Made by a program: the position numbers and the translations under genes. Shown here piece by piece: positions 28,235-63,371 of a stretch of DNA of 64,000 nt. The notes under the pieces were generated by a model. It did no database searches, was not told the DNA's origin, and saw only the letters and a list, made by a program, of their open reading frames with translations. Source of the stretch: Protula sp. h YS-2021 (Eukaryota > Annelida > Polychaeta > Sabellida > Serpulidae); the NCBI GenBank assembly GCA_949752745.1, contig OX457028.1, positions 6,816,095-6,880,094 of the forward strand, given 5' to 3'. Every line of letters starts with the position of its first letter. Within the stretch, counting starts at the first letter, position 1.

Positions 28235-28550
28235 TCACCTTCTAACAAGTTTCGTTGGTGTACTTCGTTTATCAATAGCCCCAACAGCTTCTTGAGCTGC
28301 ACAGCCAGTTACGACCTTAACCGCACTTTTGCAGCCTTGTCAAGGTGTGGTGCATCAGCTCTAACCGTAATAAGTACGGACTAGCTTTGCAAGCCACTGC
28401 ATCCAAGAACAAACCAATACAATCCCCATATTGTATGCGTGCAAAGTTAATTCCTTGCAAATCCCCACCCACTTGAAGGAAATGGTTGCGGTATGCAGAT
28501 GGATCGTGTCTGTCTGCTTTCATAAGGTTTTCATAATGCTTTTTGTCGAA
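28235..28550 (-). pseudogene. Polinton small capsid-associated protein remnant
   Basis: The minus strand encodes a glycine-rich stretch with HFLQVGGDLQGINF and RIQYGDCIGLF. This resembles the small virion or core-type protein that follows the minor capsid gene in Polinton/Maverick elements (YYxxQxGG...YQxGxGIG...F pattern). After about 50 residues the similarity shifts frame; the remaining part ends near 28235 (TPTKLVRR). It is a dead copy. Family assignment is from remembered patterns, so moderate. Confidence 0.5.
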
Positions 28551-28552
28551 AG

Positions 28553-36859: not shown

Positions 36860-37360
36860 TCAGTTCTTAAATTCTGTTCCGTTATCTAGCCTCAATGTTC
36901 TAGGTCTTATTGTTGTTTGTTGACAAATCTCTTGAAAGGCTTGAATGACACCAGTATGACTTTTGTTTGGAATAATTTGTACCCACGAGTGTTGGGACAA
37001 GACATCATTGACAATTAGTAGAAAGTGATTACCTTCATTATTTTCTGCAATGTTGACCACATCTGCCAAGTCCACATCCAACATATCATCAATGCCACGG
37101 GTAATAATACGTTGTCGTTTAAATTTATATTTCACTGGTTGAAGTAAACTAAAGCCATCTTGGTCTTGTAACTACTTTTTCACTTTGGAATTTGCTACAG
37201 GTTGTTTGTTTTGTTTCAGTAGTTTGTATAACTTATTATGTCTTGCAAATGCTCCAGTGATTCCACGTTTAAAGTAAATATTGGTTAAGTAGTCTTTCCA
37301 CGTTACTGTAGCAACTTGAAATGAAACAAATGATTCACATAACAAAACTTTTATTGACAT
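36860..37360 (-). pseudogene. Polinton-type integrase remnant, array copy 4
   Basis: Carries the same internal TAG (about 37169-37171) and Phe-to-Leu change as copies 3 and 5; nearly identical to copy 3 over the unit. Confidence 0.8.
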
Positions 37361-38754
37361 GCAAATAAGAATATTTTAGCAATTAAAAAACTAGCAAGAA
37401 GAGTATACTATGCACTACAATTCATACATATAAGCTTCAGTGCTCTTGAAACATTTTGCAATGTCTATATTCACTTCAACTCGTCCATTATTGAACATGA
37501 CAAGCTCTGATATATCTGTTGACAGTGAAACATTATGTCATAGTGTGAAATAATTCTAGCAACTTCAACTAGCATGAGGTCAGCTGCCCAAATTGTATTG
37601 GCGTTGATAAATCCTGAAGCAATGTCAGATGTATTCTCTAGGAAATTCACCTCTTTACATTCATTTACAAAAGATTGAATAAAACGATTTCTTGGAATTA
37701 TCCTTCAAACTGCTACCCAGTGTTTATGCATTTTCTTCACTTCCAGTACCCAGTCAGATTAAAATAAACAGCCTTTGAAAACAGAAAGTCAATGCATCAA
37801 ATGTTTCTATACGTCTGTTGAGATGATGACATGTTTCATTTTTCTTCTTCTTCCTGTAATATTATGACCATGTCATTTTTAAAGCGTATTCGTATATAAG
37901 TTCTTTTAAAATATCCGCCACTCTTCTATTATTTCCTTTGATACAACTCACATAAGATTAAATTTACTGGAAAGAAAAAAAGATATTGTCACCATGTCTT
38001 CAATAATTTAATGACAAGGTTTTTGCTACTTGCTAGCAGCTTTTTATATCTTACCTTGGAAATAAAAATTTTAATTTGAAGTACTTTCAGTTTCTTCTTC
38101 TTGACACAAAATTCGTATGCAAGTCATCATGTGATTGTATATCCAATGTCATACACCGAACGTGGTGAAGTTGTAGCCTTTGGTTAGTTTATCATCCTAT
38201 TGATACTGTAGACACAATTCACCATCAGCTTCAATAACTTTTATGCTAAGATCTTCTGACACTTGAAGTTAAAATTCTGGTATTGATAAAGATTTAAAAT
38301 GATAATTCACGCAACTTGATCTTCAGGAGATAGAATATTGTCAATTCACTTGTTTGTGAATTAGTCATTTTTTATTTCAAAACAAAGCCTTAATTCCTTC
38401 CCAAACCTCATGAACACTGCATCAATATTCTTCACATGCGAAATTGCAACGCTCACCCTCCTTTAAAGACAAAATCCAGCTGAACACCTTGGTGGAAGAA
38501 TGGTTCAAATGGGTTCATAGCATTGGTAATGTCTCCCGGTGATAATGCATTTTGTAAGGATCCATGAGACCTATGATTATAATTGTAGACTAAGTCTTGT
38601 AAAATATCTTATATCGTTACGTTTGGCGATGTAGAAAATAGCGATACATCATTCTTTTGAGATGACATATGACTCTTTAAGCAAAGTTGGCTTTCGCCTC
38701 AGTCTTGATAGTATATGCATGAATGTCTTCTTTCTTTATAAACTGTCTTACCCA

Positions 38755-39255
38755 TCAGTTCTTAAATTCTGTTCCGTTATCTAGCCTCAATGTTCTAGGT
38801 CTTATTGTTGTTTGTTGACAAATCTCTTGAAAGGCTTGAATGACACCAGTATGACTTTTGTTTGGAATAATTTGTACCCACGAGTGTTGGGACAAGACAT
38901 CATTGACAATTAGTAGAAAGTGATTACCTTCATTATTTTCTGCAATGTTGACCACATCTGCCAAGTCCACATCCAACATATCATCAATGCCACGGGTAAT
39001 AATACGTTGTCGTTTAAATTTATATTTCACTGGTTGAAGTAAACTAAAGCCATCTTGGTCTTGTAACTACTTTTTCACTTTGGAATTTGCTACAGGTTGT
39101 TTGTTTTGTTTCAGTAGTTTGTATAACTTATTATGTCTTGCAAATGCTCCAGTGATTCCACGTTTAAAGTAAATATTGGTTAAGTAGTCTTTCCACGTTA
39201 CTGTAGCAACTTGAAATGAAACAAATGATTCACATAACAAAACTTTTATTGACAT
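38755..39255 (-). pseudogene. Polinton-type integrase remnant, array copy 5
   Basis: Integrase part as copies 3 and 4 (TAG at about 39064-39066). The non-integrase part of this unit, however, resembles unit 1 at several sites (for example CTTCAATATTTTAATGAC near 39892 and ACTGAACGTGG near 40051), so the last unit is a mosaic. Confidence 0.8.
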
Positions 39256-40417
39256 GCAAATAAGAATATTTTAGCAATTAAAAAACTAGCAAGAAGAGTA
39301 TACTATGCACTACAATTCATACATATAAGCTTCAGTGCTCTTGAAACATTTTGCAATGTCTATATTCACTTCAACTCGTCCATTATTGAACATGACAAGC
39401 TCTGATATATCTGTTGACAGTGAAACATTATGTCATAGTGTGAAATAATTCTAGCAACTTCAACTAGCATGAGGTCAGCTGCCCAAATTGTATTGGCGTT
39501 GATAAATCCTGAAGCAATGTCAGATGTATTCTCTAGGAAATTCACCTCTTTACATTCATTTACAAAAGATTGAATAAAACGATTTCTTGGAATTATCCTT
39601 CAAACTGCTACCCAGTGTTTATGCATTTTCTTCACTTCCAGTACCCAGTCAGATTAAAATAAACAGCCTTTGAAAAAAGAAAGTCAATGCATCAAATGTT
39701 TCTATACGTCTGTTGAGATGATGACATGTTTCATTTTTCTTCTTCTTCCTGTAATATTATGACCATGTCATTTTTAAAGCGTATTCGTATATAAGTTCTT
39801 TTAAAATATCCGCCACTCTTCTATTATTTCCTTTGATACAACTCACATAAGATTAAATTTACTGGAAAGAAAAAAAGATATTGTCACCATGTCTTCAATA
39901 TTTTAATGACAAGGTTTTTGCTACTTGCTAGCAGCTTTTTATATCTTACCTTGGAAATAAAAATTTTAATTTGAAGTACTTTCAGTTTCTTCTTCTTGAC
40001 ACAAAATTCGTATACAAGTCATCATGTGATTGTATATCCAATGTCATACACTGAACGTGGTGAAATTGTAGCGTTTAGTAAGTTTATCATCCTATTGATA
40101 CTGTAGACACAATTCACCATCAGCTTTAATAACTTTTATGCTAAGATCTTCTGACACTTGAAGTTAAAATTCTGGTATTGATAAAGATTTAAAATGATAA
40201 TTCACGCAACTTGATCTTCAGGAGATAGAATATTGTCAATTCACTTGTTTGTGAATTAGTCATTTTTTATTTCAAAACAAAGCCTTAATTCCTTCCCAAA
40301 CCTCATGAACACTGCATCAATATTCTTCACATGCGAAATTGCAACGCTCACCCTCCTTTAAAGACAAAATCCAGCTGAACACCTTGGTGGAAGAATGGTT
40401 CAAATGGGTTCATAGCT

Positions 40418-43911: not shown

Positions 43912-45544
43912 ATATGTGAAATTCGGGTGTTTGTGAAATTTGGTGTAGCCGAACATAAACTGAATCACGATTCAAGGTGAGTCATCCATTTTTGACGTCA
44001 AACAGGGTTTCCTGGTTGGGATTCCGCTGAAGTATTTTGAAAGTTATTCAAAAGTTTTGAAGTACCATCTTTAAATAATGTTTCTACTGAAATCTTTGAA
44101 AATCGTAGATTGTTGGAGGAGCTAATTGTGTACATCGAACGTGTTGTTATCTCATTTTAGTCGTTTGGATGTTCTTGGGAAATTCCTCGTAAACAAGTTG
44201 CTTGTGACTCTCCCGAACATTTCTGTGAGTCATATTACTGACGCGCGTTACTCACCAAATACAAATCAGTTGAACATTGTGGTAACAGTATTTCTAGTGG
44301 AGGGCTTTCGTGATGGCAGGTAAGGTGTTATATCACTGTTGTTATTTGTATTTATTTATTGGTGACTTGAATTTTTGTAACGAAATGGCTATTCACTAGG
44401 TTCGAAATCTTGATATACTTTTGTAAACTTCTAAAGTTTTTGACCTACCGGCATATATGAACACTTAGTGAGGCTGTATAAAATTAACCTCAAGCAGACG
44501 TCGGTCCCTCATACTTAGCATAATTAGCCAAATCACACTTTTAACTTTTGGTGAGATCAGCTGGGTATTCGCAAAATATCTTACGAGTGTACAACTGCAA
44601 CAATACTCTTCGAAGTTTTCATTATCTGCCTTTTGTTTTCGTTACAAAAATTTGTCGGTACTCCCCCCCCCCCCCCCCCCCCATCCTGAATTGTTCTTGA
44701 ACCCCCATGAACATCTCAGTGGTGGTGTGTACCCAAATTTTACCCCGATTGCTTGAGAAATTCCTGACCTACTTTAATGTATGCTTTCCTTGATTGAAAT
44801 CGAAAAGCACGGGACTGTGATTGGGCTTATCTCTGATTAGCTGACAACAAAATCGTCGGATCTCCTGAACGACACCATAACCAACCCTCTAAATTTTGTA
44901 GTGGAATATTATCCTTTGTATAAGCCGACCCTAATCTCAGACCCTACTCTTATGTCGGACCCTTATTGTAATCCCTAAAAATCTGAAAGTATATTTGGTA
45001 GTTAATGTGGCTGCGAAATGAGTCTGGAATCGAAAATACAGTCTTTGCAGTTAGCTTATCCTTTAATCCATTTGCACTGTCTGTATAGCATATGCCAAGT
45101 ATAGCAAAATAACCCAGGGCAAGATTCCAAACAACTTTCGTACTACACTTATTGTAGTACCAGAAATGGTGTCCGACTGCGGTCAATAGCTGGAGCTACC
45201 GCAAGCAGAATTTGTATTGGATTATGTTCCTATACAGCAGGCCTTTTGTAATTAAAGTTTTACCCAACCTATCATTTTCAAGCCAAAAAATTATTTGCTT
45301 CAAGGAATTGTAATTGGGAAGAAAGGTGAAAAAAAATGGAAAAAAAACACCTTTCGTCCTGGTAGAAAAGGTAGAAAGTTGGAGAGAAACATTAGGATGT
45401 ACTGGTTTGTGATAACGATTTGTCTTATTTTTGAAACTTATGTCACGGGTTCTTTGTATTTCTACCCCCTTGTGACATACTCCGGCAATCGAAGCTCACC
45501 AATTACACCATTCTGTTTGTTAGTGTTTACCTGATTGCCACTTT
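43912..45544. other. No recognised gene; C run
   Basis: Apart from the candidate exon at 44161-44319 this interval holds a C run (about 44663-44682) and unremarkable sequence. Confidence 0.5.
44161..44319 (+). CDS. Candidate isolated exon, unknown product
   Basis: 159 nt between a good acceptor (TCTCATTTTAG) and a strong donor (GTAAGG), open in one frame with phase 2 in and phase 2 out (52 full codons). It encodes a hydrophobic stretch LGKFLVNKLLVTLPNISVSH, then DARYSPNTNQLNIVV and VFLVEGFRDG. I do not recognise the family. A chance open frame with good splice signals is the main alternative. Confidence 0.3.
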
Positions 45545-45639
45545 TTAGCCCAGCTTACGGTACACGTAAGCTGGGGTATTCCTATCGGTCTGCGGATGGC
45601 GTCCGTTAGTTAGTTAGTTAGTTAGTTCGCTGTAAACTT

Positions 45640-47270
45640 TGTTTCAAAATGCTTCTCCTCCTACAATTCTGATCCGATGTCATTTATTTTTGGTGTGAGG
45701 CATCCCTAAGGGGTCGTGCATACGGCTTGTGCTTTTCTTGTCGATCGGGTGATTTTTTAATTTTTGGCGAATTTTTAAAGAAAAAAATTAAAAATGTATC
45801 TCCTCCTACATTTTTGACATGATGTCATTTATTTTTGGTATGAGGCACCCCTAAAGGGTCGTGCATACGGCTTGTGCTTTTTTAGTTGATCGGACAATTT
45901 TTGTATTTTTGGGGATTTTTTTAAGCAAAAATTTTGAAAAAAATGCATCTACTCCTACAATTTTGATTCGATGTCATTTATTTTTGGTGTGAGGATTTCC
46001 CAAGCGGTCGTGCATACGGCTTGTGCTTTTTTAGTCGATCGGGTGATTTTTGAATTTTTGGGGATTTTTTGAAGAAATTTTAAAATGCATCTCCTCTTAC
46101 ATTTTGGACCCGATGTCATTTATTTTTGGTATGAGGCACCCCTGAAGGTTCGTGCATACGGCTTATGCTTTTTTAGTTTATATTTTTGGGGAATTTTTTA
46201 AGCAAAAATTTCGAAAATAATTCAAAATGCATCTACCCCTACAATATTGATTCGATGTCATTTATTTATGGTGTGAGTGCATACGGCTTGTGCTTTTTAG
46301 TCGATCGGGCAATTTTTGTATTTTTAGGGAGTTTTTGAAGAAAAAAACTTCAAAATGCATTTCCCGCTACAGTTTTGAACCTTTTTTTTGGGGGGGGGGG
46401 GGGGGTTTGAGGCATCCCTAAGGGGTTGAGAATACGACATTTATTTTTGGTATGAGTGCATACGGCTTGTGGTTTTTAGACCATCGGGCAATTTTTGTAT
46501 TTTTAGGGAGTTTTTGAAGAAAAAAACTTGAAAATGCATTTCCTGCTACAGTTTTGAACCTTTTTTTTTTTTTTTTTTGGGTTTGAGGCATCCCTAAGAG
46601 GTTGAGAATACGACATTTATTTTTGGCGTGAGTGCATACGGCTTGTGCTTTTTAGTCCATCGGGCAATTTTTGTATTTTTAGGGAGTTTTTGAAGAAAAA
46701 AACGTTAAAATGCATTTCCCCCTACAGTTTTGAACCTTTTTTTTTTTTTTGGGTTTGAGGCATCCCTAAGGGGCTGAGAATACGACTTGCACTTTTTAGT
46801 CGATCCGACAATGTCTGTATTTTTTGGGAATTTTTGAAGAAAAACTTCAAAATGCATTTCCTCCTACAGTTTTTATCCTATTTCATTTATGTTTGCTATG
46901 AGGCATCCTTAGGTAGGTCTCGCATACGGCTTGTGCTATTTGACTCGACTTGGGAATTTTTGATTTCGGGGGGAATTTTTGATGAAAATACCTCAAAATG
47001 CATTTTCTCCGGCAGTTTTGATCAAACATCATTTATTTTGGGGCTGAGGCATGCTTAGGGTGTCGTGAATATGGCCTGTCTTTTTCAGTCGATGAGAGAA
47101 TTTTTGAAGAAAAAAATTCAAAATGCATTTCCTCCTACAGTTTTTATCAGATTTCATTTATTTTCGATATGAGCCGTCTCTAGGGGGTCATGCATACGGC
47201 TTGCGCTTTTTGAGTGAATTCGAAAACTTCTGAAATTTTTTCGGAATTTTTGAAAAAAAAAATTAAATGA
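45640..47270 (+). repeat. About 145-bp degenerate repeats
   Basis: CATACGGCTTGTGC recurs at 45719, 45864, 46013, 46154 and further, spaced 141-149 bp, with flanking ATGCATCTCCTCCTACA and TCATTTATTTTTGG blocks. Later copies are increasingly diverged and contain G or T runs near 46384-46405, 46561-46578 and 46738-46750. Confidence 0.8.
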
Positions 47271-47282
47271 ATCTCCTCCTCC

Positions 47283-50070
47283 AGCGCATAAACGCAAGTT
47301 AAATAAACTTGCACAGTAGTCAGATTTAACAACCGCACATCGACGCAAGTTAAAGAAACATTCGCAGTAGTCAAAATTAAGTACTCCGCATCAATGCAAG
47401 TTAAATAAACATGCGCATTGGTCCGAATTGTGAACTGCGCATCGACGGAAGATAAATAAAGATGCGAACTGGTCCAAAATAAGCACCGCGCATCAACGCA
47501 GGTTAAATAAACATGCGCACTGGTCCGAAAAAAGAACTACGCTTCGACGTAAGTTGAATAGACATGCGCAGTGGTCTGAAATGCGAACCGCGCATCAACG
47601 CAGCCTAAAGAAACATGCGCACTGGCCCGAAATGCGAACCGCACATCGAGGCAAATTAAATAAACATGCGCAGTGGTCCGAAATGCGAACGGCGCATCAA
47701 CGCAAGTCAAATAAATATGCGCACTGCTCTGAAATGAGAACCACGCGTCAACACAAGTTAAATAAACATGGGCAATGGCCTGAAATGCGAAGCGCGCATC
47801 GACGGAAGTTAAATAAACATGCGATCCGGTGCAAAATAAGCACCGCACATCAACGCAAGTTAAACAAACATGTGCACTTGTCCGAAAAAAAGAACCACGC
47901 ATCGACGCAAGTTGAATAGACATGCGCAGTGGTCTGAAATGAGAACCACGCATCAACGCAAGTTGAATAAACATGCGCAGTGGTCCGAAGAAAGAACCAT
48001 GAATCGACGCAAGTTGAATAGACATAAGAGTCGGGCATCAACACAACCTAAAGAAACAGGTATACTGGTCCGAAATGCGAACCGGATATCAACGCAAATT
48101 AAATAAACATGCACACTGGTCCGAATTGCGAACCGCACATAAGCGTAAGTTAAATAAACATTTGCACCGGTCCAAAATAAGTACCGAGCATCAACACAAG
48201 TTAAATAAACATGCGCAATGGTCCAAAATGCGAACTACGCATCAACACAAGTTAAAAAAAAACATGTGCGCTGGTCCGAAATGCGAACCGCCCAGCAACA
48301 CAAGCTAAATAAGCAAGCACACTGGACCAAAATAAGCACCTTGCATCAACGCAAGTTAAATAAACATGCGCACTATTTCGAAATGCGGACTGCCCATTAA
48401 CGCAATTTAAATAACATGCGCACTATTCAAAACAAGAACTGCGCATCAATGCAAATTAAATAAACATGCGCACTGGTCCAGAATAAGAACCACGCATCAA
48501 CTCAAATTAAAGAAATATGCGCATTGGCCTGAAATAAGAACCGTGCATCGACGCACGTTAAATAAACATACGCAGTGGTTCGAAATGCGAACTACGCGCC
48601 AACGTAAGTTAAATAAACATTTGCACTGGTCTAAAATAAGCACCACGTATCAACACAAGTTAAATAAACATTTGCACCGGTGCAAAATAAGTACCGATCA
48701 TCAACACAAGTTAAATAAATATGCGCAATGGTCCAAAATGCGAACCACGCATCAACACAAGTTAAAAAAAAACATGCGCGCTGGTCCGAAATGCGAACCG
48801 CACAGCAACACAAGCTAAATAAGCAAGCACACTGGACCAAAATAAGCACCTTGCATCAACGCAAGTTAAATTAAAATGCACACTATGTCGAAATGCGAAC
48901 TGCCCATTAACGCAACTTAAATAACATGCGCACTATTCAAAATAAGAACTGCGCATCAACGCAAATTAAATAAACATGCGCACTGGTCCAGAATAAGAAC
49001 CATGCATCAACTCAAGTTAAAGAAATATGCGCATTGGCCTGAAATAAGAACCGTGCATCGACGCACGTTAAATAAACATACGCAGTGGTTCGAAATGCGA
49101 ACTACGCGCCAACTTAAGTTAAATAAACATTTGCACTGGTCTAAAATAAGCACCGGCCATCAACGCAAGTTAAATAAACATGCGCACTTCTCCGAAATTC
49201 GAACCGCCCATCAACACAAATTAAATAGACATGCGCAGTAGTTCGAAATGCGAATCACGCTCCAACGCAAGTTAAATAAACATTTGCACTGGTCCAAAAT
49301 AAGCACCTTGCATCAACGCAAGTTAAATAAACATGCGCACTGGTCCGAAATTCGAACCGCGCATTAACGCAAGTTAAATAAACATGCGTAATGATCCGAA
49401 ATCCGAACTGCTCATCAACGCAAGTTAAATAAACATGCACACTGGTCCAAAATGCAAACCGCGCACCAACGCAAGTTAAATAAACATAGGCACACGTCCA
49501 AAATAAGCACCGTGCATCAACGCAAGTTAAATAAACATGCAAACTGGTCCGGAATGCCAACCGCGTATCAAGGCAACCTAAGAAAACTTGGGCTGTCCGA
49601 AATAAGTATGCTCATCAACGCAAGTAAAATAAACATGCGCATTGGTATGGAATAAGAACCGCACATCAACACAAGGTAAATAAACATGCGCACTGATCCG
49701 AAATAAGAACCGCACATCAACACAAGGTAAATAAACATGCGCACTGATCCGAAATAAGAACCGCACATCAACACAATGTAAATAAAGACGCGCATTGATC
49801 CGAAATAAGAACCGCACATCAACACAAGGTAAATAAACGTGCGCACTGATCCGAAATAAGAACCGCACATCCACAAAAGGTAAAAAAAAAAAACATGGGC
49901 CCTCGTCAGAAATGCGAACCGCACATCAACGGAAGTTAAATAAACATGTGCACTGTTCCAAAATGGGAACCGCGCATCTACGCGAAATTAAATAAACATG
50001 CGTACTTGTCTGAATAAGAACCGCGCATCAAGGCAAGTTACATAAATATGCGCACTGGTCCGAAATGCGA
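47283..50070 (+). repeat. 51-bp tandem array
   Basis: About 54 degenerate copies of a 51-bp unit (blocks CAACGCAAGTTAAATAAACA and TGCGCACTGGTCCGAAATGC). Exact 51-bp spacing is seen, for example, at 49315 and 49366. Larger duplications are evident: about 48160-48540 closely resembles 48660-49040. Frames read as 17-residue repeats on both strands and are artefacts. Confidence 0.93.
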
Positions 50071-50345
50071 GCGTTGTTTGAAGGTATCTATGGCAGACTA
50101 TCCTGTCTACCAGAGATACAAAAAATCTGTTTCCCATTTTTCTTGGAAAGAAATCTTTGTATGCATTTATCGATCTATGTTCTGGTCCGGTGCTAAATTA
50201 ATTATTGGGCTAGCTCTTTGCCGTCTCATCTTTTGAAGCCCAATTTTTTTCAGGAAAATTCCCGTGCTCATGCACGCTGGGATTGGTTTTATTGCTTTTC
50301 GTAAGCTGGGACTTTGTCCTTGGACAAACTTGTTCTAAACTTTTT

Positions 50346-52158
50346 CGGCTTATGGCATCATTGCAGGGCTAGTATGATTTAAATCAGTTGCAGACAGCGA
50401 TTCCTAGACGATTCGTACCCAAGTCTTTTCACACCCAAGTCGTTTCGTACCTAATTAGATGATTCGTACCGAAACTGGTTGGTCGATTCGTATCCAAAAC
50501 AACAGGGTAGGAAACGACCAGGCAATTCGTACCCATATTCTTGGTCGATACCCAATTGCTGACTTGTTTGTTTAGAGCATATTCTAACTGAACGTCAAAA
50601 ACATGAACCACTCAAAAGCCTGTTTCTGACCCCCTTTTAAGTAAAAAACGGATATAAACTGACTCTTTTTATTTTATTCACAATATTTGGTCTTTCTAAC
50701 AACTACACTTCAATCTAATTTTGATTATAAAGACTCATATTTTGTAAAATGCACAATTAAACTCACAAATAAAACTGAGTCATAAAACGGTATTTAGTTC
50801 ATATTCACAATTTTTATATTTCGACAATAACCTAACTGACACTGAATAATTCAATTCTTTTCTGGCAGTGTTCATTGCGATGAAAATGCAACACGTATTA
50901 ATACGAAAATGTTCTCCATTTTTTGCCTGTTTTTTTTCCGGATGTTTTCAATGTCCCGAAAAAATAGGTTTTTTCCAGGGAAAATTCCAACCCCGATGAC
51001 TAACTGCACAAAACTGATATCGGGATATTTAAAGCTCGGATTTGTGCAGTTTTAACTCCAGGCATTACTGAAATCATTTCTTCTTAAAGTGGAAAACTTT
51101 TCAAACTTGAAGCAGTAAAAATGTTCACTTAATTATTCTTTCAAACATCAGTAAGTTTCCTGCATTTTCTATAAATAAAAATGAAGAAAGTATTTCTACA
51201 GTATTTATACAGTATGGAAAAAACTGGGTAAAACCAACCTGGGAAGGACCTTGCCAACCCTGGTCTCTGGTCCAAAGATCTCTGCCCCAAATGTTACAAT
51301 TTCAGACATTCGCACTGAATGGTAAAAAAAAATTAGTTGGGCGAAAGTTTCTTTTTCAGTTTCTATGCTTTGAAAAAAAAAAAGCATAAAAAGGTCAGGC
51401 CAGGTGACATCACAACAACGAGAAGAAGTACTGGTTTACTAGGTATTGCTAGGGCAGAGATATGTTGCCAAAGTTTGTTTTGAGGGTTTCTGTTAAGTAT
51501 GTGTTAGTCATTAAAAAAATTAAAAAAAAAATATTTATTGATTTTTTATCATATGTAGACAAATATATATATTTAAAATAATAATATTAATCGTCGACCA
51601 TTTTACCCGGACTAAAATAGGATTACCACAAAATATAAAATATTACTGTATAACGTAGCATCCCTGAACAGCGTAGGCAGTAGAGGGTAAAAAAATGCTA
51701 AGATCCTTGAAAACTGGTGTATCAGCGCAGTTTAAACCCCGAACCCGACTGGCGTTTGTAGTGTCACATCCTGTCATTACCAGAACAATATAAATTCATA
51801 TTTACTACACTTCTTTTGTGTGTATGTCTGACTGTGTACAATTGTAAATGGGTGAGATAAGGATCACTGTCTTCGCGATAACAAGAATATCCCCTGTATG
51901 TCGCCTGCTTTTGAAGCTGTTAGTTAAGGAATTTTAGTGTATTGTCATATTAACGTGTATGATGCAGATATTGAAAACGAATCCATAACATTTGGGTCAG
52001 AAACATTTGGGCCACTTCAAAGACAAAAGTTGTTCCGGTTTTTAAAAATTGGTGGCATATGTTCCACCTTACGCATTTAAAATGTGTTTCGATCTGGCTT
52101 TGATCAAAGCATTTAAGTACATCTTAGAAAGATAGCTTTTGTTGTGTTTTGATTTCAG
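50346..52158. other. No exon recognised; short ATTCGTACC repeats
   Basis: Near 50400-50550 the motif GATTCGTACC recurs about five times within a probable small transposon remnant. A poor T/A-rich stretch follows. The exon preceding 52159 (which must end in phase 1) should lie here or further left, but I could not identify it. Confidence 0.45.
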
Positions 52159-52199
52159 AAAGCCCACCAGTTTTCACGTTGAAGTTGAATTCAACCGTG
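52159..52199 (+). CDS. Exon: Ig strand A ([13 protein letters not shown])
   Basis: 41 nt, acceptor GATTTCAG, donor GTAAGA; phase 1 in, phase 0 out. PPVF-x-x-KL is the usual opening of an I-set domain. The phase-1 entry means at least one more coding exon lies upstream. Confidence 0.7.
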
Positions 52200-55100
52200 G
52201 TAAGACATTTTCCTTGTATAGTCTAGTTGGTCTTATGGTTTGGGTTTTGAGTACGTATTTCGGGTGCTTTGCATTCAGGTGTCTACTTGTCTCGACGTCA
52301 AATTGCTCGTTTTTAGACCAACCGACTTCGACGGGGTGGTCTTATCATATCAATAGGGGAAGCGGGGCATCCGTCGTCTGTATGCACGTGTGCACGTATG
52401 TAAAATTTTACTTAAAATGCTTCTTCTTCCCCAGTTTTTGTTTGGATTCCTTTCAAATTTTCTACGAATGTTCTCGAGGTAGGCCTCTTCAAAATTACTT
52501 TTTTTTTACTTTTTTGACAATCTGCCAAAATTTGGCCAAATGGGGGCCATTTAAAATTCTGCTTGTTTTCAAAATGCTTTTCTCACAATTTTTATCATGA
52601 CTTCAACGGGGATGCGCGGGAATCCCACGCTTTTCGAAAAAAAAAACCGCGCAGATTTATGAGAGTAGTGCGAGAGTTTGAAATTATAGAAATATCAAAC
52701 GTATTTATATGTATTGTTTTTTTTTGTTTGTTTTTTTTTTTAACTAATATTACTCTTTCCCACACCATATCAGATTTGATGTGGTGTAGGTGCATATCCC
52801 TAATGTTTTTACTTAATTCATACGTATATCTCATTGTGCGTTTGATAAAACTTTGCAGACATGACGTATAATGTTTGGACTTAAATAAAAATAATAGGAA
52901 ACATAGGAAATTAGTCTACTATATAGATATGTATACCTATATATCCATCGTTTCAAAAGTTATTTATATTTCTAGCTGACCATTGAAAGCCTTTTTATGT
53001 TACAATGTATGAATATTTTGTTCTTATTAAACAGACAATTGATTAATATTGTCTAAACAACAAACCATGCTGCCTAGGAACATTTTAGGGTAGATATTGG
53101 GTTACGGTAATTTACTGTAAAATGCACACTAGTTATTAGGACTGATTTCTGTGATTTTTTGTGTGATGCCCCCGCGTGTTTAAACTGGGTATTTGTGGTC
53201 AAAAGAATAGCTTTTGCATGTAAAATTCTGAAAAATGTTATTTAAAAAGCTGAAATTACATGTACTGTTGTTTTCTTTCTTACTTCTACTTATTTGAAAA
53301 ATCCACAGCACATTAAACACGAATATAAATAACTTTTGAACCGATGTATATATGCCTATACATATGATCTCGCATTCTGATTCCAAATCCCGCGCTTTAG
53401 TGACACAGGTGCGGGGCTGCACGCAATTTCACGATTTTGCAGAAACAGTCCTGCTTCAAATTTATGAATGTTTCCCAGGAAGGCCCCTCGTGAAGAATTA
53501 CTTTTTTGACGATCCACCGAAAATTGGCTGAACGGATTTCATTTTAAATTAAGTGGTAGGAAATTGTCAAGATGCTGTTTCTGCTACAATTTAGATCGAA
53601 TTTCTTTCCAATTTGGGGCGATTGTTCCCCAGACGGTTCTGTTTTGAAAAAATACTTTTTTGTCGATCCGCTAAAAGTGGCCAAATGGAAGTGTTTGCAA
53701 TTTTTCGATAGCCAATTTTGTAAATGCTTCTACTCCCACAATTTGGATCAGTTTAAGTGTAAATTTTGTACGAATGTTTACTAGGTAGGCCTCTCTTTAA
53801 ATCTTTTGGCGACCCGCCAAAAATTGCCAAAAAAGTTTTTTTTCTGTAGTTAATTTTCCAAAGGTTTTTTCTTCCTTTCAATTTTGATCGGATTATCTTT
53901 AAACTTTGGATAAATGTTCACTAAGTTGTCCTGTCTTGAAAACTACTTTTTTTGCGACCCAACCAAAATGGGGTTCATTAAAAAAAAAAATAGCAGCCAA
54001 TTTTTGAAATGCTTCTTCTCCCGTAATTGTGACCGAATTCCTGTAAAATTTTGTGGGATTGTTCCCTAGATGACTCTCGAGAAAAATTACATTTTTTGAG
54101 GATTCTCCAAAAATTATCCAGTTGGCGGTATTTTCTTTTTGCTTTCCAAAATGCGTTGCCTGTTGCAGTTTGATTGGATTTATTCGAAATTTTAAATTAT
54201 TACTCTTCATGTGATGTTTCTTTTAAAGTCTTTTTTTTTTGCGCACCTCCAAAAATTGGCCTGTTGCCGCCGTTTGAATGTTTTAGGTGTCAAGTGTTGC
54301 ACAATAGGGTTCTGCTAGAAATAATTTTTTAGATCCGCCAGAGATTAGGCAATGCCTGCCTTTGAAAAATTTTCAGTGACCGGTTTTTAAAATATGACTC
54401 ACTTTTTATCAACAATAACAAGCCCATTGATACTTGATTCACTAGATCTCGGCTTGAGACTGTCCCTAAACCTTCTTGTTATTTTGAAATTGAATTGTTG
54501 CCTTTAAAGCTTGCACATTTGTGTAGGCGGATATCTGCGAAACCACGACAATTCGTCTAAGCGCAATGGGTGCGACAGTTAATCTAAATTTTATTCCACT
54601 ATTTTACAAAGTGCCTGTAGCGGTTGGGGGTTGTTGAAGGTCAGAATCCAAACCCACCTCTCTTATATCGTCTGGCTGTACCAAACAAGAGAAAATTATT
54701 CTAGCTTACTCAGTATCAAAAGAAATTGTATCAATATCAAAGGATGTCTGCGTTACTGGAATTTGATACCATCTGGCCACATGGAGATAATACAAAACGA
54801 AAGAGGAAAACCAAAAATTGCCCTTGAGGGATAAATGTATACAAAAAAGAATGGAAACAAAAGTTTCATTACATGGTACTGCGTAAGAAGCGGAGCGCTG
54901 GCAACAGCCCAAACCCAGTGACTAACGTTGTCTCCACCCCCCCCCCCCGCCCCCCCCCATACACACACATACTTTCGTTTTATCCACCTACGCGCAAGGC
55001 AAGAAATGTTACTTGGATAGAAATGAAATTTAGATGATTTGTCGTACCCATTACTTTTTGATGAATTGTCGCTAAGTAATTTGTCGCCAGATGAATTGTC

Positions 55101-55435
55101 GGGATACCGATATTTACGGTTAACGCCTGTTAGAGATACACCTTCACAGCGATTGGTTGTTTTCTTCACAGGAAGTCAATGAGAAGTCCACCTTAGTGTT
55201 AGAAGTCAAGGTCACTGGTAACCCAGAGCCCACCATCAAGTGGAAAAGGTGAGTGATTAGTATTCTGCTCCTGAAGTTGCCAAAAACACAGCAAAACTGT
55301 TTGAAACTGTAGCTCTGAATGTCATTTTCGTTATTTGTGAAGAATATCAACAACCAGAACGCACAAGTTCGATTTTCGTCAATGTGTTTTAATTACGTTC
55401 GTTTTTACTCCTTTTTCGATTCTTCTTCCCTCTCG

Positions 55436-55480
<45 letters not shown>

Positions 55481-58400
55481 TTTTCTTTTTTTTTGTTGTC
55501 TGCAAATCGTTTCCACGGATCTTGTCAAAAAAGCGAGCAACTAAATATTTGAAACTTTGAGGCGAAAAATGCCTTAAATGTTGTGTTTTATCGATAATAA
55601 TTTTACATCGTGTATAAGCGGCCAGTGTTTGTTTATGGGCTTTCAAATAAATCGCTTTTATGGAAGCAGTGTCTCTAAATTAGGCATTGTTTTATAGTGG
55701 GTTGGAGGGGGGGGGGGGGGTTCTGTATTCTTTGCGGTGTTCAGTCGAAGTTTCCCCCTCCTCCCCTACCCCCCTCAGTTGAGGTTATTGCGCTGAAATA
55801 TCAATCGTAGTAATCCGTTAAAAGTTTTGATTTATGTGAATGCTAACAATGTGGAAAGTTTTACTCTGTTTCTAAGTGTATCCCTGAAAAGAAGACTGCT
55901 CTACTTAACACATAGCAGTGACGTCACTGGTGAACAGAGGAGCATTTTTACAAGCAGTTGTTCTTCTCTTAGGGTCTAGAAAGCACCAACATCGAATAAC
56001 GTTTTTTTTTTTTTTTGTTTTTTTTTTTTAGAAATGGCAATGACTTGTCACCCTCAAACCGCGTACAGATGAACAGGGAAGGAAACGTGGCTACGCTCAA
56101 GGTAACATTTCAGTCTCAATTTGGGGTGAGATATTATGAGGTCATATTGTTGGTATCATCATCATCACCATCACCACCACCACCATCATCATCTACAGCT
56201 GTAGGCTATGCCTAATGCTCATGATAGTGGAAGGGTTGGCAACATTTGTTTCACTCTGTGTTTGTTAAAACCCCCGCATTTGTCATCAGAAGCTGGTCTC
56301 CATTACTTGCAAAACAACAAATATGAACTGACTCAGGATCTTTCATCAGATGTGAGGCAATCATATCTTTGAGTCATGAGTGACGCGAAATGAGTTGCCC
56401 CACGACAACTCATGTTCTGTCCTAACCCCGGATTCTAACTCCAAAAACGGATTCAGAGTTGTGCAACCAAGTTTATGCTGATTTTTTTTTTTTGTGGATG
56501 TGTGTACGTTATTTTTTTTTTTTTTTTTTTGTGGGTGTGTGTACGTTATTTCCCAAGATTAATTTGATCTTGGGGGTTTTCAGAAGGGTGTCGTTATGAA
56601 ATAGGTCATGTGACTTAACCTTGGGTCGCTAACGACAAGCGATTAGCTCTGTAGTGGATTGGAGGGCTGTGTGCCCGGTGTGTGGTTCGACTGACCGTGT
56701 GTTATGTGTCAGATAAGGAGTTCTCGGCTGGTCTTTAGGTGTCGTCTCCTGCTGCCTCTCTACTTAACGCTGCAGGCAAAGGATTCTAAAGACAGTGAAA
56801 CGGCTGGTAGATGGGGGGAGGGGAGGGTGGAGAGAGGACGGAAGGGGAAGAGGAGGAGGGGAGGGGAAGGGGAGGGTGGAGAGAGGACGGAAGAGGAAGA
56901 AGAGGAGGGGAGGGGAAGGGGAGGGTGGAGAGAGGACGGAAGGGGAAGAGGAGGAGGGGAGGGGAAGGGGAGGGTGGAGAGAGGACGGAAGAGGAAGAAG
57001 AGGGCAGGGAGAGAGAGAGGACGGAAGAGGAAGAAGAGGGCAGGGAGCGAGAGGACGGAAGGGGAAGAAGAGGGGAGGGAGAGAGAGAGGACGGAAGGGG
57101 AAGAAGAGGGGAGGGAGCGAGAGAGGACGGAAGGGGAAGAAGAGGGCAGGGAGCGAGAGAGGACGGAAGGGGAAGAAGAGGGGAGGGAGAGAGAGAGGAC
57201 GGAAGGGGAAGAAGAGGGGAGGGAGAGAGAGGACGGAAGGGGAAGAAGAGGGGAGGGAGAGAGAGAGGACGGAAGGGGAAGAAGAGGGGAGGGAGAGAGA
57301 GAGGACGGAAGGGGAAGAAGAGGGGAGGGAGAGAGAGGACGGAAGGGGAAGAAGAGGGGAGGGAGAGAGAGAGGACGGAAGGGGAAGAAGAGGGCAGGGA
57401 GAGAGAGAGGACGGAAGGGGAAGAAGAGGGGAGGGAGAGAGAGAGGACGGAAGGGGAAGAAGAGGGGAGGGAGAGAGAGGACGGAAGGGGAAGAAGAGGG
57501 GAGGGAGAGAGAGAGGACGGAAGGGGAAGAAGAGGGGAGGGAGCGAGAGAGGACGGAAGGGGAAGAAGAGGGCAGGGAGCGAGAGAGGACGGAAGGGGAA
57601 GAAGAGGGGAGGGAGAGAGAGAGGACGGAAGGGGAAGAAGAGGGGAGGGAGAGAGAGGACGGAAGGGGAAGAAGAGGGGAGGGAGAGAGAGAGGACGGAA
57701 GGGGAAGAAGAGGGGAGGGAGAGAGAGAGGACGGAAGGGGAAGAAGAGGGCAGGGAGCGAGAGAGGACGGAAGGGGAAGAAGAGGGGAGGGAGAGAGAGA
57801 GGACGGAAGGGGAAGAAGAGGGGAGGGAGAGAGAGGACGGAAGGGGAAGAAGAGGGGAGGGGGTGCAGTCGGAAGGGAAGGGAGAAGAGAGAGGACGGGG
57901 GGGGGGGGGAGGGAGGCGGAGTCGGAGGGATGGTAGTTAGAAGAGATATGCTCTGCAAAAGAAATAAGCGGTTCGTACTTTCGCCTTTCACGAAAAGTTT
58001 TTGCGTTTCGACTCAAGTCGATTGGGATCAAGGTAGAAATAAATAATACAGAAAAATATAAATAAGGCAAAAGGAAACAAAATTCCATTTTGCCAGAAGC
58101 ATATTTACAAGTTGGCTGTTGGAGGAGCTGAATAATGTGTTAAATGGTTTTTTAAAAGATCATGTAAGGCCTTTTGAATTGAAAGTGTGCATGTTGAAAG
58201 ATAATTAGAATTTTGATGTTTTCTCCTTATCATTATAATTTAAACCAAACAAAAAAAATGCAATCGAAACATCACCTCCATCGGAAAGATCCGAAAATAT
58301 GATTTAGCTTATGGAAGTCCTGAACGAAAGTGCCTGTGTACTATCTAGTGAGGTTAAAGAATGTTAAAAAATAAAGTGTGTAGATTCGATTCAATGAGTT

Positions 58401-61291
58401 ACAAATAAAAGTGGGTGTAGGCGGGGGGTGGGGGGGGGGGTGATGTCCAAGATAAGAGAATTCGCATATGTTTTTGCGGTAGACACCTTTTGTCGTTCTC
58501 ACTAAGATTCAGACTGACGATGTGCCCTTGTATGTTTTTAGGTGGCAGGGGTGCAGGTAAAGAACAGTGGCAAGTTCATATGTATAGCCGAAAACTCCGC
58601 AGGCCAGGCTAGCTGCGAAGCTGACGTCCAGGGTACGACAGTCTTTTTTTTTTTTTTTGGCCCAGTCGACTATTGTCTTTTGACTATATTCATCGCTCAT
58701 GGGGGCACTATGTTTATCACTTATGTGTATGTAAACAATTGTTTGAAATGCCACTTTTTCTGTATTGCGGAATGATCCCTGGGTAATCCTCCTTTCTTCT
58801 CTCTTTTTTTTTTTTTTTAAGGGATTTGGCCAAATTTAGGAATACAAGAAATGTTACTCTTTCTACAAGTCCGTCCTGACTTATCTTAAGAGAAGCATCA
58901 AAGAAATGCTGTTCATCCCACAGATCCTATCTTTTGATAGCCAATAGGACCTTACACCAATTGTAAATTTATTTTAAATTCATCGATTTCTCCTTTCACT
59001 TTTGTAATGTCTTTGCTTTTACGGCTGGGCATAATGTCCATGGACATTCTTGTTTTTGTTTGTTGCAACATTTTTTTTATAATAGAATTGTATCGAGACG
59101 GAGGGCTGACAGCGTGTAAAAAGGAGGATGGATTTGAATGGGTATAAAAACAGTAGCAACTTCTTATGGCAGCAAAGCGAAATCCTCACGAATCATCCGC
59201 GGATACGCAACGCAATTAAAAAGTGATATAAAATTGTGTTAGCGGGTTTCATTAAAACCAGACTTGATTAAGAGGCATGTTAAATTTAAAAAAAAAAATA
59301 GTCAGGGGGTGAATGAGAGAATCATGTTCTGTATTCTTAAGGGGTGCAAGGCGAATCTGATAGCCGCACCTTTTTAGTTTTTGCAGTGAAAAAGAAAGGT
59401 CCGAAGATAGTGGTACCGTCAGAACCGGCAAAGCCAACACAGTAGGTTTACATTCGAACCGTGGTGTTTTTGGGGTGAAACAGGAAAGATTTGTTTTCGC
59501 GTTAATCCGGTGAAATAGAGCTGTGGTTTTAATGTGTCGTCGGGTGTTTTCAAAAAAAAAAAAATAAATAAAAACATCTCTACTTGTATTGAGAGTTTTT
59601 TTTTTTTTTTTTGTATTGCAATTCACAATTGAAGCACAACTCCTAGTTCCCGGTTATCGTGGCACTTCTGTTGGTCGTGAATACGGCCGTCGGAAGTTCA
59701 CTGCGTATTACCAAAAAATCACGCCGCGTTAAGTATGAAAAAAAAAAAACCGTAAGTGGTTCCCTGACTCGCACCGCCTTTTAGCCGACAAGTTGTACCG
59801 GTTGTCCCGGGGCAGGGCAGCTACTGATTAAAAACCTTGAAATAATTAAGTTATTGTTAAAATACAGTGTGGCAAAATTAAGAAATCGTAAGATTTGTGC
59901 TAGTAACTGTAAGTTATACTTCAGAATATCTGCATTATTAATTGAAATTGGATAACCTGAAATACTTCCAGCTTTCCGATATTCATTGACCAAGCAAAAG
60001 ATGTAAAGGTGGCGAAAAATATTTTAAGGTAAACTAATGAAGGAGTGATATGTTGTTATTGTAGACCGCCACGGCCGGGGCTCGATTCCGAGGCGACCAT
60101 CACGATCGGCGACACGACAGTCGTCGTGAACGCGGCCGACCTGGAGATGCAGGAGCTTCTGGGTCGGGGTGCCTACGGGGTCGTCGAGCGCTACGTGCAC
60201 CGCCCCTCGGGCACCGTCATGGCCGTCAAGGTGCGTGACGCGCATGCGCGGCTTGTCGTTTTTTTGGCCACCAGCTGGAGCTTAAGGTCCCGTAGAGGGG
60301 GGGGGGGGACTAGAGATTTGAGTATTGTCTGTCTGCCAGTCCGTCCATCGTTGGCTGTTGCTGCCACCCTCATAATCCTTTTCCTGCGATATATTGGCAC
60401 ATAAATGACCTATAGTAGTGGATGGGTGCGCCTTATTTTTATTTTGACCTTGACCCAATTTCAGTGTCACACTGGTCGTCATCTTTGCTTTTTAAATTCC
60501 AGTTTTCAATTCCTTGCTGTCTTCTGTACTCTTTTATGACGAACCATTTATACATTTTTGTGTAGAGAATTGAAGTGTTATATATATATATGCGACATAC
60601 ATATATATATATGTTACAGGGAATCTGTGTAATTAGGGATTTCATGAAATCCGTAGGGAATTCGTGTAATGAATAAGCTCATGTTGATTATAAACGTATT
60701 TTGAAAAATTATCCATTCAGGAAGGCTGTTTAGTGGTTCTTCAAAACTATGTATCCCTTTTCACATCGAAAGGAATTGGAATTTATAACATTACCATCTA
60801 AAATAACAGAGTTGGCGTGAAATGTGACATAAGTTACAAAGGATAAAAATATCGCTAAATTCAGTTACTGAAGTATCTCATGAATGATTATTTGGCAACC
60901 GAGTGCTTTGAGTGTATTAATTCAAAATCTGTTATTAATTTCGGTAAAATACTACATTGCAGACATGAAAATTCTCATTAAAAACATCGAAATTGATTGA
61001 ACAAGTTATTACACGATTCCACTAGGGATTTCATGAAATCCCTAATTTCACAGATTCCCTGTAACATGTATATATATATGAGACACAGCCTTCACAAAAT
61101 TTACACAGTATAAACGTATATATTTGCAAGTGCGCTACGTCGTATTATTTTTGAAATGAGTCGAAAATGGACGGATCGGTAGTTATCAAAAATAGATGAC
61201 TTTTAACATTGTGCTATCGAGAATTCGGTTTTTAGTCCAGACAAGTTCTCAGAATCTATAAGGCTAGTGGTTAGAAACTTCATACAGATCA

Positions 61292-61366
<75 letters not shown>

Positions 61367-61701
61367 GATTGTTTTTCTGTCTTTTAGCTCGTCATTCTTC
61401 GTTTTCCTATTTGTTTCTTCAAACAAGTGCGTCCCACTATATCCTTCATAGCCTAAAACGAAACTGTAGTTGAAGATATATAAAATAATTAATAATAGAA
61501 GGAAAATTTACGCGAACTGTTTTTCGAAAAAAAAAAAGATGCGTTTCTCTCACGGCGTCTGGACTTCCTTCTCTGTGTCCTTTCTTTTTTTTTTTTTTTT
61601 TTTTTTTGAATGGAGACGGGTTGCGTAACTTGTATAATTTTAACACAAAGAAAATTTCCGCCAACTGTTTTTGGAAAAAAGCGCCGCGTCTGTGTGTGTG
61701 T

Positions 61702-61733
<32 letters not shown>

Positions 61734-63371
61734 GTGGGGTGAGGGGGTGGGGGGAGGTTGCGTCACTTGCAGAATTATTGACACAGAAACGCGTCTTTAC
61801 GAGATTAAGATAGTCATGCCACCCTGCTGATCGCTGGGGCTTTGCCGTTGTGAAATCTGTGAAATCAAGTCCTTTGTATCACCAGAAGTGATTGATGTTC
61901 TGCTGACGTTTTAGCCCCTTACTCGTGTTATCGGTTTTCATCTTTGGTCCCAGACATCAAGACTAATCCACACCGAATAAATAAAATAATAAAATGTGTG
62001 TTTATATTTATTGTTTATTTGTTCTTGTTTACTGTTTCAGCGTATAACACACACAGTAAACAATTTAGAACAGAAGAGATTGTTGATGGATTTGGATGTC
62101 TCCATGAGGACGGGGAAGTGCCCCTACACTGTCAAGTTCTTCGGTGCTATGTTCAGGGAGGTACGGTAGATGCTCACTAATGATAGAAATATACATATGA
62201 AAAAATGGAAACTTAAAAAGTTAAAAGGTGTCGGCGTAAATTTCAAGTGCTTGGACACATGGTATCAGGTGGCCTGCACCCCCCCCCCCCCGTCCCACGC
62301 AGACATACCTAGTTTCCCACTCTTTATACGCAGCGGGAGAAGGGGTTCCAAATTACAAATTCTGCAACTTAATAACCCCAGTGGTTAGGTCCGTGTAATG
62401 CGTTATATATGTTCGTGTTTTTGTGGGGAGACGTGTGCTGATACAGGTGATTCTTTCTGTATTTGCTGTTTAATGCGCTTTATGTGTTCGTGTCTTTGCG
62501 CGGAGACGTGTGCGGATACATGTAATTATGTCTGTATATGCTATGCAATGCGCTCTATGCGTTCGTGTCTTTGGGGGAGGGTGGATTACACAGATGGTTA
62601 TATCAGTGTATGAAGTGCGGTGCGCCATATGTGTTCGTGTGTTTGCAGGGAGACGTTTACTTATGCAGGTGGTTGCTTCCATGCCGTGCAATGCGTTATT
62701 ATGTTCGTGTCTTTGCAGGGAGACGTGTGGATATGCATGGAAGTGATGGACACATCTTTAGACAAATTTTACGAGAAAGTAGCGGAGAGAAATAAAACCA
62801 TACCAGAGCATGTCTTAGGCAAAATCGCCCATGCTGTACGTCACTCGCTGCGTTCTGTTCTATCTTAATTGATACTGATAATTTTTTTCAGGGTTTATCC
62901 CTATTTGCGGTGCTAGATTAAGTCTCTTATTTATGTGTGAATTAATGGACAAGAGTAAGTGCCTTCTGGGCGTGTTTACATTTTTACTTATATTTACGTG
63001 TATGGCAGTTGAATTCATTTTTGAAAAAATGTGAATTGGTAGTTGGGTCGAATTAAGTCTTCTGTTAAGAATGATACAGTGGAAATTACTGTGCGGACTG
63101 ATTAGAAGAAAAGTTATCGAATAAATGTGTTGGAAATTACTGTGCGAACTCCTTAGAAGAAAAGTTATCGAATAGATGTGTTCTATTTTAGGCTATCAGC
63201 GCGCTGCACTACCTAAAAGAGGAGTTATCGGTGATTCACCGTGACGTCAAACCATCGAACATTTTGATTAAAAAAACGGGTGAAGTAAAAATCTGTGATT
63301 TTGGCATTAGTGGCAATTTAGTGGATTCCGTGGCCAAGACGATGGATGCCGGCTGCAAACCGTACATGGGG
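52159..63371 (+). CDS. Ig domain fused to MKK3/6-type MAP kinase kinase, partial
   Basis: Nine exons (52159-52199, 55172-55248, 56032-56101, 58542-58632, 59387-59441, 60065-60230, 62041-62160, 62719-62835, 63192-63371) give 917 nt in one frame. Intron phases in order are 0, 2, 0, 1, 2, 0, 0, 0. Residues 1-93 form one I-set Ig module that enters and leaves in phase 1. Residues 94-115 are a Lys-rich linker with KKKGPKIVV, a MAPK docking-type motif. The kinase then has GRGAYG (glycine loop), MAVK (ATP Lys), HRDVKPSN (catalytic loop), DFG and the SVAKT activation-loop sites. MKK3/6 kinases phosphorylate p38 MAPK on Thr and Tyr. The C-lobe lies past the right edge and the start is not found. Two overlapping or adjacent transcripts rather than one fusion cannot be excluded without RNA. 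Confidence 0.7.
52313..54400 (-). mobile_element. Helitron-like repeat block in an Ig intron
   Basis: TTAG (52313) followed by a hairpin (52316-52341, arms GACCAACC / GGGGTGGTC) is, on the minus strand, a hairpin plus CTAAAAA, like the ends at 15950, 16697 and 45545. It is followed to about 54400 by degenerate repeats of roughly 150 bp (AATGCTTCTTCTCCC, GATCGAATTTCTTTCCAA and AGGTAGGCCTC motifs). The right boundary is uncertain. Confidence 0.55.
54401..55171. other. Ig intron, no exon seen
   Basis: Contains a C run (about 54937-54958) and, near 55025-55105, repeated GATGAATTGTCG motifs that look like a small transposon remnant. Confidence 0.5.
55172..55248 (+). CDS. Exon: Ig strands A'-C
   Basis: 77 nt, acceptor TTCTTCACAG, donor GTGAGT; phase 0 in, phase 2 out. 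It encodes [20 protein letters not shown] then TIKWKR. VTGNPEP-x-x-KW is diagnostic of I-set strands B-C. The usual B-strand Cys is Val here, as in many titin-like domains. Confidence 0.82.
55249..56031. other. Ig intron, microsatellite
   Basis: A CT dinucleotide run (about 55439-55471) followed by a T run, a G run near 55708-55720, and the long T-rich acceptor tract of the next exon. Nothing else recognised. Confidence 0.6.
56032..56101 (+). CDS. Exon: Ig strands C'-E
   Basis: 70 nt, acceptor in a long T tract ending TTTAG, donor GTAACA; phase 2 in, phase 0 out. It encodes [20 protein letters not shown] then TLK, a typical C'-D-E region (NGxxL...R...L). Confidence 0.78.
56102..56806. other. 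Ig intron, possible tRNA-like remnant
   Basis: Two adjacent copies of a TTTGTGGGTGTGTGTACGTTATT block (about 56470-56555), a CAT/CAC microsatellite near 56157-56195, and near 56641-56700 a weak tRNA-like pair of boxes (TTAGCTC..., GGTTCGACTGACC). Confidence 0.4.
56807..57930. repeat. 1.1-kb polypurine minisatellite in an Ig intron
   Basis: About 30 copies of a 34-36 bp unit (GGACGGAAGGGGAAGAAGAG then GGGAGGGAGAGAGAGA) plus an earlier section with longer variants. The plus strand is almost entirely A and G, with isolated C in GGACGG and GCGAG and a few T early in the array. All three plus-strand frames and two minus-strand frames stay open for about 380-440 residues; none is a gene. Confidence 0.95.
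57931..58541. other. Ig intron, nothing recognised
   Basis: AT-rich sequence with a G run near 58420-58440; the acceptor of the next exon is at 58540-58541. Confidence 0.5.
58542..58632 (+). CDS. Exon: Ig strands F-G
   Basis: 91 nt, acceptor TTTTTAG, donor GTACGA; phase 0 in, phase 1 out. It encodes [20 protein letters not shown], the F-G hairpin of an I-set domain (D/N-x-G-x-Y/F-x-C-x-A-x-N-x-x-G). The phase-1 exit completes a symmetric 1-1 Ig module. Confidence 0.82.
58633..59386. other. Intron between Ig and MAPK-docking exons
   Basis: I searched this interval for an ATG-containing first exon that would end in phase 1, which a stand-alone MKK gene would need, and found none convincing. 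I also saw no polyadenylation signal that would clearly end an Ig-only transcript, although reading through the 58632 donor stays open to a stop near 58773-58775. Confidence 0.45.
59387..59441 (+). CDS. Exon: MAPK docking-type linker
   Basis: 55 nt, acceptor TTTTTGCAG, donor GTAGGT; phase 1 in, phase 2 out. It matches both the Ig exon before it (G plus TG gives Val) and the kinase exon after it (CA plus A gives Gln). It encodes [17 protein letters not shown]. The basic cluster followed by hydrophobic-x-hydrophobic and the position just before PPRPGLDS mirror the p38-docking N-terminus of MKK3/MKK6. Confidence 0.65.
59442..60064. other. Intron, nothing recognised
   Basis: T-rich and A-rich runs (about 59597-59613, 59739-59750); no exon signal. 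Confidence 0.5.
60065..60230 (+). CDS. Exon: MKK3/6 kinase N-lobe start
   Basis: 166 nt, acceptor TTATTGTAG, donor GTGCGT; phase 2 in, phase 0 out. It encodes [16 protein letters not shown], then [18 protein letters not shown] and SGTVMAVK: the glycine-rich loop and ATP-binding Lys. LDS-x-x-x-x-IGD before the kinase domain is specific to MKK3/6. GC-rich compared with its surroundings. Confidence 0.9.
60611..61067. mobile_element. MITE with 45-bp terminal inverted repeats
   Basis: The left end begins ATGTTACAGGGAATCTGTG and continues AATTAGGGATTTCATGAAAT; the right end (61025-61067) is its inverse. Each TIR contains the inner palindrome GGATTTCATGAAATCC. The element lies within TA repeats, consistent with a TA target. 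About 457 bp, no coding capacity, located in the first visible kinase intron. Confidence 0.85.
61295..61363. repeat. TA microsatellite
   Basis: About 34 TA dinucleotides without interruption, inside the kinase intron. Confidence 0.95.
62041..62160 (+). CDS. Exon: MKK3/6 helix C region
   Basis: 120 nt, acceptor ACTGTTTCAG, donor GTACGG; phase 0 both sides. It encodes [20 protein letters not shown] followed by [14 protein letters not shown], the [14 protein letters not shown] signature of MKK3/6. Confidence 0.9.
62390..62735 (+). repeat. Tandem copies of the exon's own 3' splice site
   Basis: Four degenerate copies of about 75 bp precede and include the acceptor of the exon at 62719. Each has TGTTCGTGTCTTTG-like, GGAGACGTGTG-like and a following ATGCGCT block (starts near 62397, 62470, 62546 and 62620; the real site is the fifth). 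One upstream copy keeps a complete acceptor (GTGTTTGCAG at about 62639-62648) followed by GGAGACGTTTACTTATGCAG and then GT. Confidence 0.8.
62719..62835 (+). CDS. Exon: MKK3/6 hinge and helix D-E
   Basis: 117 nt, acceptor TCTTTGCAG, donor GTACGT; phase 0 both sides. It encodes [20 protein letters not shown] followed by [13 protein letters not shown]. The first bases of this exon and its acceptor are repeated several times in the upstream intron. Confidence 0.9.
63072..63180. repeat. 54-bp direct duplication before an exon
   Basis: Two adjacent copies of about 54 bp (GGAAATTACTGTGCG, then AGAAGAAAAGTTATCGAATA) lie directly upstream of the acceptor at 63191. Confidence 0.85.
63192..63371 (+). 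CDS. Exon: MKK3/6 catalytic and activation loops
   Basis: 180 nt, acceptor TCTATTTTAG, donor GTGAGT; phase 0 both sides. It encodes [32 protein letters not shown] and [10 protein letters not shown]. Catalytic Asp, Mg-binding DFG and both activation-loop phospho-sites (Ser and Thr in SVAKT) are present. The last codon is GGG (Gly), where most MKKs have Ala before Pro-Glu. Remaining exons lie beyond 64000. Confidence 0.92.

Follow-up and report, generated by a model that had tools for sequence, protein, structure and literature searches.

A candidate Ig-MKK3/6 fusion gene in the genome of Protula sp. h YS-2021

The p38-activating kinases MKK3 and MKK6 (MAP2K3 and MAP2K6) are STE7 kinases that usually, though not by strict definition, have a single domain, and MAP kinase kinases (MAP2Ks) are usually positioned by separate scaffolds. 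Immunoglobulin (Ig) domains of the I-set type share one chain with a Ser/Thr kinase in titin, twitchin, obscurin, SPEG and MLCK, and those kinases are of the CAMK/MLCK type. A MAP kinase cascade has been placed on the sarcomere by a non-covalent route; in a review (PMC8553726), FHL1 is described as holding Raf1, Mek2 and Erk2 on titin N2B. We report here on a locus of Protula sp. h YS-2021 (assembly GCA_949752745.1) in which an I-set Ig domain precedes a kinase of the MKK3/6 type in the same conceptual open frame. It lies in a stretch of 64,000 nucleotides (OX457028.1:6816095-6880094, forward strand), called the window below and used for all coordinates, and continues into the DNA directly downstream (L009; an L009 position plus 64000 gives the extrapolated window position). 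Judged from the genomic sequence, the locus is probably one genuine Ig-MKK3/6 gene and the only MKK3/6 found in this genome. MKK3 and MKK6 are its best sequence match, and it shares with them an SVAKT activation loop and a basic docking-like N-terminus, but differs from them in the Ig domain that stands in frame before the docking-like stretch and so departs from the single-domain plan, in reading GPE in place of APE, and in a duplicated C-lobe exon. With titin and the other Ig-kinases it shares an I-set Ig and a Ser/Thr kinase in one chain, but its kinase belongs to the MAP2Ks and its Ig is the only one found. The titin N2B-FHL1 scaffold acts on the ERK branch through FHL1, non-covalently; here a covalent link would serve the p38 branch. 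A preliminary description of this DNA had noted that no Ig-MAP2K fusion was known; consistent with this, we found none described in the literature searched, outside which subscription papers mostly fell, and none in passages of PMC4883820, PMC2651890, PMC4177888, PMC3117856, PMC8553726 and PMC3039611. Predicted proteins in databases may hold this architecture.

Nine plus-strand candidate exons between positions 52159 and 63371 have AG/GT borders in the window sequence and agree in phase at every join. Together they form a single open frame of 305 residues, which runs from an I-set Ig through a basic docking-like stretch into an MKK3/6 kinase, of which it covers the first two thirds. The Ig domain starts in exon 1 (52159-52199, phase 1 to 0), which is defined by its borders and frame, continues through exon 2 (55172-55248, phase 0 to 2), which covers the canonical B-strand Cys site, and exon 3 (56032-56101, phase 2 to 0), and ends in exon 4 (58542-58632, phase 0 to 1). 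The MKK linker exon (59387-59441, phase 1 to 2), which carries the docking-like stretch, aligns to the N-terminus of MKK6. Four more exons, each placed by its borders, its frame and its alignment to MKK6, follow at 60065-60230 (Gly loop and catalytic Lys), 62041-62160, 62719-62835 and 63192-63371 (catalytic loop and SVAKT activation loop, ending in CKPYMG). The chain with its eight phase-matched junctions and its order of I-set, docking-like stretch and MKK3/6 kinase had been proposed in the preliminary description, and the borders, the frame and the Pfam and PDB matches given below confirm it. Seven of the eight junctions fall within the Ig or within the MKK part and are given by homology, so only the junction between 58632 and 59387 tests the fusion.

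Pfam Pkinase matched the 305-residue frame with 112.3 bits (E 3.4e-32), covering the first two thirds of the domain, and the best PDB sequence was MKK6 (3vn9, E 2.2e-84), ahead of MKK4 (1.2e-69), MKK7 (1.5e-46) and MEK2 (5.2e-37), which bears out the earlier assignment to the MKK3/6 type. Up to the APE position, 138 of 210 aligned residues are identical to the 3vn9 chain. The 60 best of 2015 matched PDB sequences comprise 57 MAP2Ks followed by three STE20-type kinases (STK3/STK4), and include no MLCK or titin kinase. The catalytic motifs are intact in the frame, as is the S-x-x-x-T activation loop (SVAKT). In the linker exon, KKKGPKIVV aligns with KKRNPGLKI of MKK6 and is docking-like by sequence; it directly adjoins the last Ig strand, so the Ig may affect docking. 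A search of assembled genome contigs returned matches at 16 loci, all of them in records titled as bacterial and confined to the kinase part (27-40% identity), and the joined frame found no match in viral contigs.

The Ig domain has a Pfam I-set match at residues 3-93 that spans the whole model (positions 1-90 of 90) at 81.8 bits against a cut-off of 23.7 (E 3.8e-23). Its two top rows among PDB sequences are titin, and extracellular Igs such as those of Robo and contactin come after them. In the alignment of these rows the B-strand Cys is replaced by V, the F-strand Cys and the Trp being present, so the domain lacks the canonical B-F disulfide that is usual in extracellular I-set members; two titin rows in this alignment likewise have no B-strand Cys. 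A profile of 27 sequences, from which the window's own Ig was left out, was run over 164 kb, made up of the window with 70 kb before it and 30 kb after it and including 5.2 kb of N. Exons 2, 4 and 3 on their own scored 28.7, 20.0 and 12.4 bits, the last (E 0.049) below the inclusion threshold, and the maxima in the controls were 9.8 bits for the reversed 164 kb and 5.9-9.1 bits in four shuffled copies. No other Ig piece in the 164 kb exceeded the 9.8-bit control maximum. Exon 1 has 41 bases, too few for a score, and depends on the joined frame. The intron between exons 3 and 4 contains a purine-rich 36-base tandem repeat of about 25 copies (56966-57861).

In the preliminary description the phases were seen as suited to exon shuffling or read-through fusion. 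A genome-wide I-set search, in which the best 150 of 605 candidates were scored, does not list the window Ig among its matches; its exons match singly. The best match to it elsewhere is at C7:49131284-49131532 (42% identity over 83 residues). Ig matches are densely clustered around this site, at about C7:48.92-49.26 Mb, and we take the cluster to be a titin- or twitchin-like gene. Many Igs of that cluster have the whole or nearly the whole domain in one open frame, whereas three introns interrupt the window Ig, and we therefore judge a recent copy or exon shuffle from this cluster to be unlikely.

Searching the 863-Mb genome with the kinase part (best 150 of 181 candidates scored, 89 matches) placed the Ig-MKK locus in the first four positions. 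No second MKK3/6 was seen among the matches inspected; many weaker ones, some with 51-64% identity over 33-46 residues, were left uninspected. Another four split MAP2K loci resemble, by our reading of their sequences, MKK4, MKK7, MEK5 and MEK1/2. Three Ig profiles run over 20-30 kb at each of these found no open reading frame (ORF) better than E 1.7; the DNA covered upstream of the first kinase exon was 10.4 kb for MKK4, 10.8 kb for MEK1/2 and 13.6 kb for MEK5, and 12.8 kb upstream was covered at the MKK7-like locus, whose N-lobe exon was not located.

At the one junction that tests the fusion, Ig exon 4 and the linker exon are 754 bases apart, and the MKK introns measure 356-2221 bases. Scored with simple approximate matrices, the linker-exon acceptor ranks in the top 0.2% of the 1629 AG sites in 40000-69000 and the exon 4 donor in the top 5.2% of the 1709 GT sites there. 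The stronger evidence comes from the context, namely a lone Ig, an intron-sized gap, no other recognised owner for the Ig, an MKK3/6 that is the only one found, and no standout Ig in the DNA scanned at the four other MAP2K loci; this outweighs the agreement in phase.

The rest of the kinase lies on the plus strand beyond the window. The MKK3/6 exon for the segment after APE occurs in two versions, E10a (L009:1321-1473, extrapolated window 65321-65473), which is open and divergent (22 of 48 residues identical to MKK6), and E10b (L009:2038-2182, extrapolated window 66038-66182), with 26 of 48 identical when it is read across its frame shifts; possibly these are mutually exclusive exons, or one is a dying copy. 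E11 (L009:3685 or 3695 to 3759) has two AG acceptors 10 bases apart and heads a C-rich stretch (L009:3685-4395) in which its core recurs at about 3824 and 4040 and, in part, at 4363, and E12 (L009:4583-4730) is the last kinase exon and contains the stop. When E10a is joined to the first AG of E11, the frame meets a stop codon; use of the second AG, 10 bases in, gives an unbroken Ig-MKK frame of 426 residues to the stop codon and a complete Pkinase match (model positions 3-263 of 263); the other routes are frame-shifted.

A number of observations weigh against reading the locus as a single Ig-MKK3/6 gene, and some of them belong to this C-lobe. E10b carries two +1 shifts and E11 carries one from its first AG, an open frame to the end requires E10a together with the second AG acceptor, and the kinase has GPE at the APE position. 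Together with the repetition of the E11 core in the C-rich tandem array and a resemblance to MKK6 that drops from 121 of 171 residues in the preceding kinase part to 52 of 107 in the C-lobe segment, these features would also fit a decaying locus with a C-lobe broken either in this individual or in the species, so that neither an Ig form nor a plain form is a working kinase. We regard such decay as quite improbable, since the catalytic motifs and activation loop are intact, the alternative splice yields a full open frame with a stop, and the single-base shifts may be assembly errors. On the Ig side, the matches to Robo and contactin leave a cytosolic origin unproven, and the gene model as a whole comes from the genome of one species. 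At the junction itself, phases would match by chance about one time in three, and the entry of the linker exon in phase 1, which the preliminary description had counted in favour of a fusion, fails as support: the first bases of the exon after the AG are TG, and any preceding exon with a final A would complete a split ATG (ATG AAA AAG) and start a short MKK3/6, which is also compatible with the phase. Exon 2 of human MAP2K6 is likewise entered in phase 1. Of that description as a whole, the Ig and p38-type MAP2K in one phase-compatible chain stand, and phase-1 entry as a sign of fusion does not. Upstream exons left of 52159, which it had called for, were sought, and no start exon could be credited: among short ATG first exons with a phase-1 end and a donor score of at least 7, 44000-52158 held one two-residue candidate, and codon-bias scoring was uninformative, giving the ten known exons scores between -2.7 and 17.3 that do not discriminate. 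Finally, the search for another owner of the Ig took in ten of the 120 ORFs of at least 75 residues that overlap 1-52200, plus two ORFs further upstream. Pfam gave two weak matches among these twelve (integrase core and HELZ2 OB, both on the minus strand) and none for the other ten, so that no owner was recognised, with the limit that short plus-strand exons could be missed.

The split ATG matters for two further explanations. The Ig exons could be a separate small or remnant gene next to an MKK3/6 that has its own, possibly non-coding, first exon and starts either at a split ATG at 59387 or in a small ATG-bearing exon elsewhere. The canonical MKK3/6 protein is short, and the frame of Ig exon 4 continues without a stop beyond its donor as far as 58772, so a read-through end of an Ig gene there is possible. 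However, the gap of 754 bases is the size of an intron, no other Ig piece stood out in the 164 kb to suggest a gene to which this single Ig might belong, and a scan of 58633-59386, which did not take in the introns inside the Ig, found no ATG exon of 7-250 bases with a phase-1 end and a donor score of at least 4; we consider two neighbouring genes unlikely. Alternatively, the Ig may enter only a rare alternative or read-through transcript that has no separate role, with plain MKK3/6 as the main product. This overlaps with the single-gene explanation on whether the 58632-59387 junction is ever used, and it draws on the same possible split ATG as well as on the argument that, the locus being the only MKK3/6 found, a plain form may be needed. 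We think it rather unlikely that this is the whole account, because the Ig is well formed (81.8 bits) and free of stops, which suggests that it is maintained.

Under the single-gene explanation that we favour, four upstream exons would supply an N-terminal, cytosolic I-set Ig that runs in frame straight into the docking-like stretch, and the dual-specificity kinase would dock and phosphorylate p38 as usual. Through the Ig, acting as a handle for protein binding, the kinase would then be anchored to a partner in the cytoskeleton, the sarcomere or a scaffold. In this scheme we infer the use of the 58632-59387 junction, the cytosolic location, p38 as the substrate and the tethering itself. A short isoform without the Ig may coexist with the long one. 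A stronger version, in which the sole MKK3/6 of this lineage is a covalent Ig-kinase built on an Ig module of the titin type and thereby holds p38 signalling on the contractile machinery or the cytoskeleton, is possible but on balance doubtful. If the fusion is real, a MAP2K with its own Ig would carry an anchor for p38 signalling within itself, a route from mechanical or cytoskeletal stress to p38 could become testable with one gene, and the combination of Ig and kinase would reach beyond the familiar cases among CAMK kinases and receptor tyrosine kinases.

Some further features lie around the locus. On the minus strand, five tandem copies of a unit with an integrase-like ORF lie 1895 bases apart at 31175-39599, and the one copy of this ORF that was scanned matched Pfam rve at 4.6e-4, under the cut-off. 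Three neighbouring minus-strand ORFs at 26956-28796 gave one weak HELZ2 OB-fold match (E 0.013) and two no match. Long plus-strand ORFs at L011:~2650-6000 look like a mobile-element DNA polymerase. Upstream of the Ig, a tandem array with periods of 51 and 153 bases occupies 47285-50067, has long open frames on both strands, and includes 40 copies of the 51-base unit in 48024-50066.

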